Positions 24,742 through 29,259 of a stretch of DNA of 64,000 nucleotides are shown here, one piece after another (the first letter of the stretch is position 1; the number at the start of each line of letters is the position of its first letter). The notes under the pieces are model-generated. The model saw only the letters and a program-made list of their open reading frames with translations. It had not been told where the DNA came from and did not search any database. The DNA is from a virus. The position numbers and the translations under genes were made by a program. The stretch is taken from the IMG/VR virus record IMGVR_UViG_3300042305_001773, positions 141,045 through 205,044 of that record. One strand, given 5' to 3'.

Positions 24742-27700
24742 TTAATTATTCAGTATGGCGCGAATCGTGTTTCGCAGGTTTGTGTTCGTATTTAATTGCG
24801 CAATTAGCTCGTTAAGAAACGCGCCAGATTTAACAATTTCGGCCACGTTAATTGTGATGGTGCCGTCAATTGCGGATGCGTTTGCGGTGATAGTACCGCT
24901 ACCGATAGCCGACGGTGTAAATGTAATTATACCTCCGGTCGGCACGACTCCGGTTGCACCCTGCGGACCTGTTGCGCCGGTCGCGCCGGCGTTACCACAC
25001 GGGCCCGTCGCGCCAGACGGACCGATTGGGCCGGTTATGCCCGCGGGACCTTGCGCGCCCGTAGCGCCTCGTGCTCCGGGCGTACCGGCGGGACCCATAA
25101 GCCCTGTCGCGCCGGTCGATCCGCGCGGCCCAGCTTGGCCTTGAGGTCCGACAGGCCCCACGGCGCCCACGGGACCTGTCGCGCCAACTGCGCCGGTTTG
25201 TCCGTTTTGACCGGCCGGACCTTGTGAGCCGGGCGGCCCGATCGGGCCGATTGCGCCAGTTGCGCCCTTGTCTCCTTTGTTGCCGGTTAATCCGCGCGGA
25301 CCTGTGGCCCCGGCTGGACCGACCGGACCCGTAGCGCCAGTGACGCCGGTTGCGCCTGTTGCGCCTCGCGGGCCAGTCACGCCCGTTGCGCCACGAGGGC
25401 CGGTAGGGCCGGTGGGACCGGTTGGACCTGTGGGGCCGGTGGCGCCAGTTGCTCCGGTGGCTCCAGTTGCTCCGGTAGCGCCAGTTGCTCCGGTAACTCC
25501 TGTCGGGCCTGTTGGGCCGCGTGGACCAGTAAGACCTGTCAGGCCGGTAACGCCTTTGTCTCCTTTATCGCCTTTGGCGCCGTTTGCGCCTGCCGGGCCG
25601 CGTGGGCCTGTGGCGCCGGTTAAACCTGTGTCGCCTTTATCGCCTTTGGCGCCGGCGGCACCGGCGTCTCCTTTGTCTCCGGTGCAGCCGGTTGGACCCA
25701 TTTCGCCTTGCGGGCCGATAATACTTAAACCGGGTAAACCCTGAATACCTTGATCGCCCTTATCTCCTTTATCGCCTTTGTCGCCCTTGTCGCCTTTAAG
25801 CCCTTGCGGCCCGGGAAGACCCGGCAAACCCATAAAACCCGGCGGACCCATCGGCCCCGGGACGCCCTGCAGACCTTTATCGCCTTTGTCGCCTTTATCG
25901 CCCTTGTCGCCGGTATCGCCTTTATCGCCTTTATCGCCAGTATCACCTTTGTCGCCTTTGGCGCCGCCGTCGCCTTTATCGCCTTGCGGCCCCTGCGGTC
26001 CCGGAGGTCCCGGCACGCAGCTACCGCCGCTTCCGCCACCGAGACCGCCGCCGGAACCAGCTGGGCAATCTGTTGTGTTTAAATTGATATCAATGTTGAG
26101 CTGATCACCGTCAACTGTGATCGTGCCGCTGCCGAGACCAGACGGATAAATATTGACGGTGCCACCTGCAATCTCACATTTTGGGATCCAGAGATAGGGC
26201 TCAATTTTCCACTTACAGTCGCCAAGATCGTGAACTATGATCTCGGCGCGCGCGTCTTCGTCGCAGCCGACGATTAATGCTCGACCCACGCTGCCCTCGA
26301 TTTGCGGCACGCAAACCGGCACGCCAATGTCGATATCCAAAGCATACGAACACAGCGGCGGCTCATCAGGCGTAGAGCCGGGTGTTGTTGTCGGCGTAAC
26401 TGTGCCGTAACCGTACGGATAAGTCGACTCCGTAACATCGACGTTTAATGTAATGATTGGACACGGCGCCGGCGGGCATTTTGGAATCCACAAATACGGC
26501 GTGAGTTTAAATTCGCAAAGATCGATCTGTTCGACCAGAATTTCGGCGCGAGCGTCGATACCGCAGCCTGTGAGTACAGTACCTTCGCCGCCTGTGATTT
26601 TTGTGAGGCACGGCTTCGGCATTCCGAGATAAAGCGGCAGAATAACGTCGCAGTAGTAGCCGGGATCAAAGTTAAATATTGGCGCGCCAGAAAACGCATA
26701 CGGATCGGCTTGCGGCGGCAGCACCTGCAAATCGACGATCATCGACACCGTTGTGCACGGCGGTTTTGGAATTTTGATGTACAGCTCAAAATCAACTTCA
26801 AAGCAGCAGACCGGCGGATCGTTCGTGCCGCGCTTCTCGTCGTATTCAGGGCACTTCTCGATCTCAAATTTGAACCGCGGTACGACGTCGTAGCCGACTT
26901 CGTGATCAAGATTCTTGACGCGAAATTGTGTGCACGGCGGCCGGGGCGTCGGTATGTCGATGTGGATGTCGAACAAGAAATTGCACGAGCCCGGATCGTT
27001 GCAGGTCGGCGGTGTTGATACCGAAATGAGATTGAAAAAACTCGGGGTGTTACTGAGCCGACCGGCGGGACCGTCTTTATAATGACTATTAACAGTGAGA
27101 AAGCGCGCAAGCGTCGGACACCGTGGCCGCGGAATCGGCACGACGATTTCGATCTCGATATCAAAATCGCAGCGCTCGGGCTGATCACAACCGGAAGCGG
27201 GTGTTACTGTTTTTGTGATCTCAAAACGCGACTGTCCAGCGGCGCAGCTTGTACCAGCAAAGCCTGTTTTAACAGTGAACAGCTTTTTGGCGATGTCGAT
27301 ACACGGCGGCGGCGGGATTGGTACAACGATCTCTAAATCAATATCAAAATCACACTGGTCCGGCGTGTTGCAGTCGCCCGGCGTTACGCGCGATGTAATT
27401 TCAAAGCGGTTTGATTTACCTTGCACGCACGGCGAATCGCTAAAACCGGTAGACACATCAAATTTCGTGACATTGATGTTCGGGCACGGCGGCTTTGGAA
27501 TTGGAATATCAATTGTGAGATCGATATTGAATTCGCACTGATCTGGTGTGGTGCAGTCGCCGGGAACGTGACTCGTTGTGATCTCAAATTTTGACGAGCC
27601 TGTACTGCACGTGGGGTCGTCAAAGTGAGTGTTAACCTCAAACGTTCGAGTATTAATGATCGGGCACGGCGGGCGCGGGATCGGCACCACGATGGTGAGA

Positions 27701-29259
27701 TCAATATCAAACTCACACTGGTCCGGCGTGTTGCAGTTACCCGGTGTTCGTCTTGGGGTTATTTCAAACGTTGAACCGCCCTGCACGCACGACGAGTCAC
27801 TAAAGCCAGTAGTGACCTCAAATTTTTTGCGGTTGATAATCGGGCATGGCGTACGTGGGATTGGTACGACAATTTCTAGCTCAATATCAAAGACGCACTG
27901 ATCGGGATTGTTGCAGTCTCCCGGAACGTGGTTGGTGGTAATTTCAAATTTAGACGGCGTCTGCACGCACGAAGAGTCGCTAAACCCCGTCGTGACTTTG
28001 AGCACCGGCGAATTGATAATCGGACACGGCACGCGAGGGATTGGAATAACAATCTCTAGCTCAATATCAAATTCGCATTGACCGGAACTATTGCAGTCGC
28101 CGGGAGTGTGGTTGGTTGTGATTTCAAATTTGTTACCGCCGGTTAAACACCCTGAATCGTCATAGCCGCTGGTGACCGTGAGTTTTGGTTGGTTAATAAT
28201 CGGACACGGTACGCGCGGAATCGGTACAACAATTTCGAGTTCAAAATTGAACTCGCACTGATCGGGGTTGTTGCAGTCGCCGGCGATATGATTTGTCGTG
28301 ATCTCAAAACGATTTGTACCCGTGAGACATCCGGCGTCGTCATATCCAGACGACACTGACAAGTTGGGCGAGTTCAGCGTCGGGCACGGTGTGCGCGGAA
28401 TCGGCACAACGATTTCTAGCTCGACGTCGAACTCGCACCGGTCCGGCGTATTGCAATCGCCGGGCGTGTGACGCGGCGTGATACTGAAAAAGTTTTGTTT
28501 GTCTTCAACGCACGGCGAATCAGAAAAACCGCTGTCGACAGAGAAGCTAGTCAGATTAATTGCCGGACACGGCGGCCGCGGGAACGGAATGGCAATTTCT
28601 AGCTCGACTTCAAAACGACACTGATCAGCCGTGTCGCAATCTCCCGGGGTGATGATCTGCTCAATTGTTAATTTGTTTTGCTTGTTGAGCATACAAGGGG
28701 AGTCGGAATACCCCGAGTACACACCAAAGTCGGTGACGACAATTTGCGGGCATGGCGGTTTCGGCACTGGAATCTTGAGATCCAGATCAATGACAAACTC
28801 GCACTGGTTGGGCGTCTTACAGTCGCCGGGCGTAATAATCGGCGTAATACGGATTTCGCTCAGCGGCGCAATACAATCCTGATAACCAACTTCTAATCCG
28901 AACTCACCGGCTGTAAGCGTCGGGCAAGGTGTGCGCGGTACCGGCACATTGATATCTAAGGTGACGTCGTAACGGCACGGGTCGATATCTTGTCGCGTGA
29001 TCTTCAGTTCGTTTTTAGGCGGCGGGCAGCCATCGTCGCCGTCGCCGACAAAGTTGACGTCAATCGACGTCAAAGTCGAGAAATCAGGGCAGCGGTTGCC
29101 AACTTCTGTCGGTGGTTCGCGCGGAATGATCGGCGCCTGACAGCCGTAGATTGGCGGCGGCAACGGTTCAATCTCGCAAACCGATGAAATGAAATCGAAG
29201 TCTACCTTTGGGGTAGGATCGATCGGGCACTGCGAGTCTTTAAAAAGATTTTCAGGCAT
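24742..29259 (-). CDS. Giant fibre: Cys-rich tandem domains plus collagen rod, 1505 aa
   Basis: Three parts are visible. Residues about 56-770 contain roughly 12 copies of a 60-residue Cys-rich beta repeat, each with a C-P start, a GFSDS-C segment, FEIT, PGDCN-P-QC and a VPIPRP end; further, more divergent copies continue to about 1030. A short strand unit ([17 protein letters not shown]) precedes a 350-residue Gly-X-Y collagen rod (about 1081-1435, one interruption at LSIIG). The C-terminus repeats the strand unit and ends with the cap [18 protein letters not shown]. The ATG at 29259 is one base from the upstream stop. It is probably a long tail fibre. Confidence 0.85.
24955..26010. repeat. 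9-bp periodic collagen-coding repeat (long fibre)
   Basis: Region coding for the collagen rod. It includes runs of near-identical 9-mers around 25380-25500 (GAT and GPT triplets) and around 25750-25960 (GDK triplets), likely to expand and contract by slippage. Confidence 0.8.
26938..29094. repeat. Tandem ~180-bp repeats coding the Cys-rich domain
   Basis: About 12 units of 165-186 bp, seen for example as recurring plus-strand ATTGTTGCAGTCGCC and TCGGGCACGG blocks. Sequence similarity is highest among units at roughly 27480-28560. Conservation of Cys and Pro codons shows protein-level selection. Confidence 0.8.

Follow-up and report, generated by a model that had tools for sequence, protein, structure and literature searches.

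A viral fibre protein combining a new cysteine-rich repeat array with a collagen-like rod, and a predicted disulfide link between its repeats

The fibre gene and its neighbours

The window, that is, the whole stretch of 64 kb analysed here, is the terminal part of a 205 kb virus record from a large uncultured phage. It contains a fibre cluster that holds a baseplate-wedge-like gene (phrog_6) and a sheath-like gene, together with the features collected in Table 1. Translation of the fibre gene gives one open frame of 1505 aa without any stop, and this uninterrupted frame confirms the original prediction of a giant fibre in which Cys-rich repeats are fused to a collagen rod. The fusion is not a frame artefact, because four full-length homologues (L009-L012, 46-79% identical over aligned positions), found in a whole-protein scan of viral contigs, read through the same architecture.

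Table 1. Parts of the fibre gene and the two genes adjoining it (positions refer to the window)
Feature	Positions	Strand	Basis
Fibre gene, 1505 aa	24742..29259	-	Single open frame; full-length homologues of the same architecture
N-terminal piece, residues 1-55, ENLFK..C...P..DFDF...C.I...PPPI..C	29095..29259	-	Conserved in relatives
Array of 13 contiguous ~60-residue four-Cys beta units, residues 56-832	26764..29094	-	Profile search, AF2 of units 4-7, coevolution
First unit, residues 57-109, C22 present and C40 absent: start of cysteine chain	28933..29091	-	
Unit 12, residues 712-773, C40 present and C22 absent: end of cysteine chain	26941..27126	-	
Degenerate units keeping the C...IP.PC pattern, residues 833-1031	26167..26763	-	Sequence; 932-982 scored by profile
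Neck, residues 1032-1065, a 15-residue stretch and then .....I.INLNTTDC	26065..26166	-	BLASTP against cap
Gly-X-Y (collagen-like) rod, residues ~1084-1437, 354 residues	24949..26010	-	Pfam PF01391
C-terminal cap, residues 1438-1505, 68 residues	24745..24948	-	Sequence and BLASTP
412-aa gene directly upstream of the fibre gene	29261..30499	-	Synteny, alignment A3
Second collagen-like gene, 299 aa, directly downstream of the fibre gene	23840..24739	-	Sequence, Pfam, synteny

The N-terminal ~55 residues are recognisably alike in all relatives with an intact start. A search of the fibre protein with a profile of the unit, later repeated on the wider family, located the 13 contiguous units and another one at residues 932-982, with domain E-values of about 1e-11 to 1e-30; the tandem 60-residue repeats originally noticed are therefore real, although their count of about 12 was slightly low. 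Degenerate units are present besides the contiguous ones. The neck is related to the cap (12 of 34 residues identical by BLASTP, E=3e-6 for that single comparison) and is followed by a Gly-rich linker and then by the rod, in which the Pfam family Collagen (PF01391) matches seven stretches (E=9.6e-51). The dimensions of the rod and cap agree with the roughly 350 Gly-X-Y residues and short cap expected. The cap consists of a second copy of the neck motif and a helical tail marked by a 12-residue sequence, and 66 of the 69 cysteines of the protein lie within its first 1080 residues. At the DNA level only one 2-copy 180-bp tandem (27753-28128) is visible in the unit array, which indicates that the array is old; a recent simple repeat expansion was rejected for the same reason.

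Wherever a locus extends as far as the 412-aa gene, the fibre gene comes after it, and the upstream genes recur among relatives at 35-99% identity with their order kept. The 412-aa protein, whose 13-residue N-terminus is near-invariant in all relatives, is a candidate fibre adaptor; its structural model is of low confidence in parts and had no match in the PDB. The 299-aa gene is found downstream in most of the collagen-type relatives. Its product is a possible partner of the fibre or a second fibre, and the likeness of its 16-residue C-terminal tail to that of the fibre (L..LIA.LQTN..LR) suggests that both proteins may share an assembly partner.

Relatives and identity of the repeat unit

Loci L013-L036 of the whole-protein scan, which matched mainly the collagen part, were left out of the family analysis. 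The unit-based search of viral sequences that had been proposed earlier was carried out with a two-unit alignment against viral contigs and recovered 36 loci, from which, after removal of duplicates, a family set of 30 distinct proteins including that of the window was obtained. In ten records of 194-205 kb the unit is confined to one gene per phage. No unit was detected at E<=1 among 50,697 records of named phages, nor in 84,980 prokaryotic species (one genome each) scanned by a procedure that finds candidates through peptide patterns and that very distant relatives may escape; a cellular origin was rejected on the latter result. No host was identified: matches of the sheath gene were only weak and spread over diverse myoviruses, and two other genes had none.

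The unit has also been compared with curated families and structures. Searches of Pfam and NCBIfam yielded no recognised domain profile, including Ig-, FN3- and cadherin-like ones, and zinc-finger or EGF-like Cys-rich profiles gave only sub-threshold matches (best E=0.005). Searches of the fibre protein against PHROGs returned matches to the collagen region only. The single match of the unit profile among PDB sequences was adiponectin (E=0.44), and Foldseek comparison of the unit model with the PDB gave none at E<=1e-3. The only BFVD match at E<=1e-3 was not accepted as a relative (TM 0.13, 11% identity). A known characterised domain, which the original prediction had named as the outcome that would overturn it, was thus looked for in Pfam, NCBIfam, PHROGs, PDB sequences, PDB folds and BFVD and rejected as the identity of the unit; the repeat is undescribed, as had been supposed, and constitutes a new family without match to any curated family or solved structure.

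Fold of the unit

The AlphaFold2 model of units 4-7 (single chain, 75-row alignment) has a mean pLDDT of 77.7 and a pTM of 0.34, this low pTM making the orientation from unit to unit unreliable. Three strands per unit are seen in the model (5-17, 29-37, and 46-59 in the first unit modelled), and their places agree with the strands derived from mean-field couplings computed over 312 pairs of neighbouring units (effective number 241). In this analysis, strand A runs parallel to C (couplings 4-48, 6-50, 9-51, and 15-54) and strand B antiparallel to it (29-53, 31-50, and 34-49). The unit is therefore proposed to be an amphipathic three-stranded sheet of order A-C-B followed by a Pro-rich linker, with C as a rigid centre strand, given that 329 of 330 units share a C46-to-P59 spacing of 13. 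Residues of the VILMFYW set occupy 94-97% of inward and 12-15% of outward strand positions. A lone sheet would consequently expose a hydrophobic face, which argues for packing of the sheets against a partner surface, probably that of the other two chains. With this topology, one end of the unit would carry C22 and the other end the remaining three cysteines (C3, C40, and C46).

Array length and exchange of the C-terminal module

Complete arrays among the relatives contain 5-19 units. What follows the array is collagen in most relatives, poly-Ser and FN3-like segments (the latter FN3-like by eye) in L071, and a Ser-rich tail in L068; in L061, L063, and L064 the fibre ends at the neck with nothing further. 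Collagen begins directly at the unit end in L060 and L065, and a short collagen stretch lies between two units in L070. These joins suggest that the units, like the triple helix, are built from three chains lying next to one another.

Phage fibres are usually attached to the virion by the N-terminus, with the C-terminus pointing outward. The conserved N-terminal piece, the variable number of units and the exchanged C-terminal module make it most likely that the array is a virion-proximal, copy-number-variable shaft and the collagen a distal rod. The original prediction had left open whether the repeats formed the proximal or the distal half, and this can now be refined to the proximal one. Single units may accommodate an extra domain or long segment within a loop, as observed in L012 (residues ~530-640), L059 (~175-262) and L053 (~335-485 and ~815-1025), and such insertions of whole domains suggest that the unit loops face outward.

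An ordered cysteine rule between units

The original prediction contained no rule for the order of the cysteines between units, which has been added by the present comparison. C3 is present in 357 of 357 aligned units and C46 in 362 of 362, whereas C22 and C40 vary among units. In nearly every array the latter two follow the same order: a start unit with C22 only, middle units with both, an end unit with C40 only, and then short units with neither. The clade of L051, L052, L056, and L058 departs from it by having no C22-only first unit. Pairing of C22 in one unit (i) with C40 in the following one (i+1) would produce such ordered states. In fact, when cysteines were assigned to the A-B and B-C loops, 303 of 318 junctions were concordant with pairing between units (odds ratio 245), as against 286 of 353 with pairing within the same unit (odds ratio 11), all of these junction counts being inflated by common ancestry, with most array ends inherited. 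Of the 15 mismatches, nine concern one homologous unit that recurs with extra cysteines of its own, two are units with a second Cys in the same loop, two have a compensating Cys at the end of strand C, and the last two arise where the unit detected next is not the true neighbour. An earlier scoring gave 310 of 328 concordant junctions compared with 217 +/- 6.6 after shuffling of the order (maximum 240 in 5000 shuffles), figures that are not to be read as probabilities since the 30 proteins share ancestry and their first and last units have largely inherited states.

The couplings point in the same direction: 22-40' ranked 6th of 6786 and the same-unit 22-40 about 2593rd, and shuffling of neighbours within proteins lowered 22-40' to rank 1380 or below in every one of 20 trials. 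Pairing of C22(i) with C40(i+1), by which consecutive units would be stitched head-to-tail through a disulfide, is predicted from these patterns, and it is also geometrically simple, since the inferred topology puts C22 far from C40 within a unit. A C22-C40 bridge within the unit is disfavoured by both the junction counts and the coupling ranks. For C3 and C46, whose invariant columns carry no real covariation, a bridge within the unit is proposed from their joint invariance and the adjacency of strands A and C.

Proposed architecture and alternative explanations

The gene is proposed to encode a long fibre of the tail or baseplate, probably a homotrimer, and the whole arrangement (docked N-terminus, stitched unit shaft, neck, collagen rod, cap, and exchangeable tip) is considered probable. 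The N-terminal ~55 residues would dock the fibre to the virion, the ~13 beta units would form a proximal shaft with a spacer function, the neck would register the three chains, the collagen triple helix would constitute the distal rod and the small cap would close the fibre. Each unit would be held at its base by the C3-C46 bridge and joined to the next across the junction by the C22(i)-C40(i+1) bridge, giving a covalently reinforced shaft; these bridges would probably form once the cell has lysed or where conditions are oxidising. Units may be gained or lost to adjust the length of the array, and phages may exchange the distal module as a whole. A stronger version, in which the units of the trimeric shaft are disulfide-bridged, possibly between chains, into a continuous cross-linked cable whose start, end and restart are encoded by Cys marks, is put forward only tentatively.

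Several other explanations have been weighed for the same observations. One holds that the order of C22 and C40 is a frozen accident, the end units having each lost one Cys once and the cysteines being free or bridged within the unit; it draws on the homology, through most of the family, of the exceptional units at both ends. Nevertheless, the mid-array breaks of L067, L059, and L053 (clearly independent ones number only about three) are two-sided across one junction, in L051 three units with an extra A-B-loop Cys each precede one with an extra B-C-loop Cys, in L052 and L058 the absence of C40 from the next unit is accompanied by a new Cys where strand C ends, and a C22-C40 bridge within the unit would need to cover the full length of the strand, so that this explanation appears unlikely. 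Another reading is metal binding, for example of zinc, by C22 of unit i and C3, C40, and C46 of unit i+1 within the same architecture. The cytoplasm in which phage proteins fold is normally reducing, disulfides are unusual in a phage protein assembled there, and a metal site would suit such folding; moreover, C22(i) is coupled to C40(i+1) and the inferred topology gathers all four cysteines near the junction. On the other hand, the first unit and all the short units keep C3 and C46 without the C22/C40 pair, and extra cysteines come in twos (L051, L067, L052, and L058), a pairwise gain and loss that fits bridges better than a four-ligand site. Metal binding is hence regarded as quite unlikely.

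The remaining alternative concerns the function of the array rather than its cysteines. The original prediction had proposed either a spacer of variable copy number or a receptor-binding string, and the array might be mainly an exposed string for receptor binding or decoration, with units diversifying for their ligands. This would be in keeping with neighbouring units being only 16-71% identical and with the domains inserted in the loops of L012, L053, and L059. However, relatives keep the same core and register in their units, and the part that is swapped is the C-terminal module, through which phage fibres usually bind. Receptor binding by the array is consequently judged improbable; the variable copy number and the role as spacer or shaft are the parts of the earlier proposal that are retained in the stitched-shaft architecture.

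Comparison with known fibres

Collagen-like phage fibres are recognised by a long uninterrupted Gly-X-Y run and a gene placed in a tail/baseplate cluster, and both are found here. In the collagen-like prophage fibre proteins EPclA and EPclB of E. coli O157:H7, cap and coiled-coil modules have been shown to trimerise (PMC3368898). They resemble the present fibre in the collagen triple helix, the non-collagenous modules on both sides and the modular exchange, but possess an N-terminal PfN and a coiled coil where a long Cys-rich beta array is found here (PMC3368898); in family searches, no sequence relation to them was detectable outside Gly-X-Y. The T4 proteins gp34 (proximal long fibre) and gp12 (short fibre) likewise have a proximal tandem-repeat shaft, beta-prism domains and loop insertions, although the T4 repeats are alpha/beta (PMC5537660), and neither the PDB profile search nor Foldseek gave a sequence or fold match between them and the unit. 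Another example is FibU, the baseplate upper fibre of phage 80alpha with a predicted collagen-like stretch, which is however short (residues 178-208), follows an Ig-like BppU domain and is not accompanied by a repeat array (PMC7048315).

Small beta domains are also strung as spacers in tandem Ig, cadherin, and FN3 stalks. The fibre array shares this arrangement with such stalks but its unit differs by having three strands in 60 residues, no Pfam match and only insignificant Foldseek matches. By analogy, the protein appears to work as modular trimeric fibres do, with a collagen rod and a proximal repeat shaft, and its repeat belongs to neither EPclA/EPclB nor gp34. No description of a comparable Cys-bridged repeat shaft was found in a literature collection that covers only a minority of subscription journals. 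With this unit, the known building blocks of phage fibres gain a new repeat module, together with a rule, readable in the sequence, for covalent stitching between repeats. If the bridges form, this would be a tail-fibre shaft strengthened by inter-unit disulfides, of tunable length and with exchangeable tips, and of possible interest to designers of protein fibres.

Additional observations

Several other genes of the fibre cluster and of the phage genome have been noted. The protein next to the 412-aa one (30499-31275) carries a motif, F.DE...SRYPF, similar to the N-terminus of the 412-aa protein, and the two may possibly share a docking peptide. In the same phage genome there are two further collagen-like genes (G000:C1:68095-70452 and 85580-86284), which have in common a different N-terminal motif, KRISxLP.... 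Downstream of the fibre gene in L061, L063, and L064, which are relatives without collagen rod, Cys-rich proteins with very long poly-Ser runs are encoded (L061:10466-14073, L063:10689-13049, and L064:10687-15224). Large proteins that look glycosyltransferase-like by eye occur in the fibre clusters of four relatives (L063:13652-15550, L064:16387-18318, L065:11968-13923, and L070:14839-16752) and possibly modify Ser-rich or Thr-rich fibre segments. The tail gene cluster of the window encodes on the minus strand a protein of 1566 aa (46309-51009) with zero Cys and no PHROG match, a candidate tape-measure protein by its size. Finally, parts of a 1077-aa protein (55924-59157, minus strand) match the tail-sheath families phrog_2839 and phrog_279 and others match head-closure and head-structural families; because of these matches to both sheath and head families, it is possibly an enlarged sheath protein with inserted domains.
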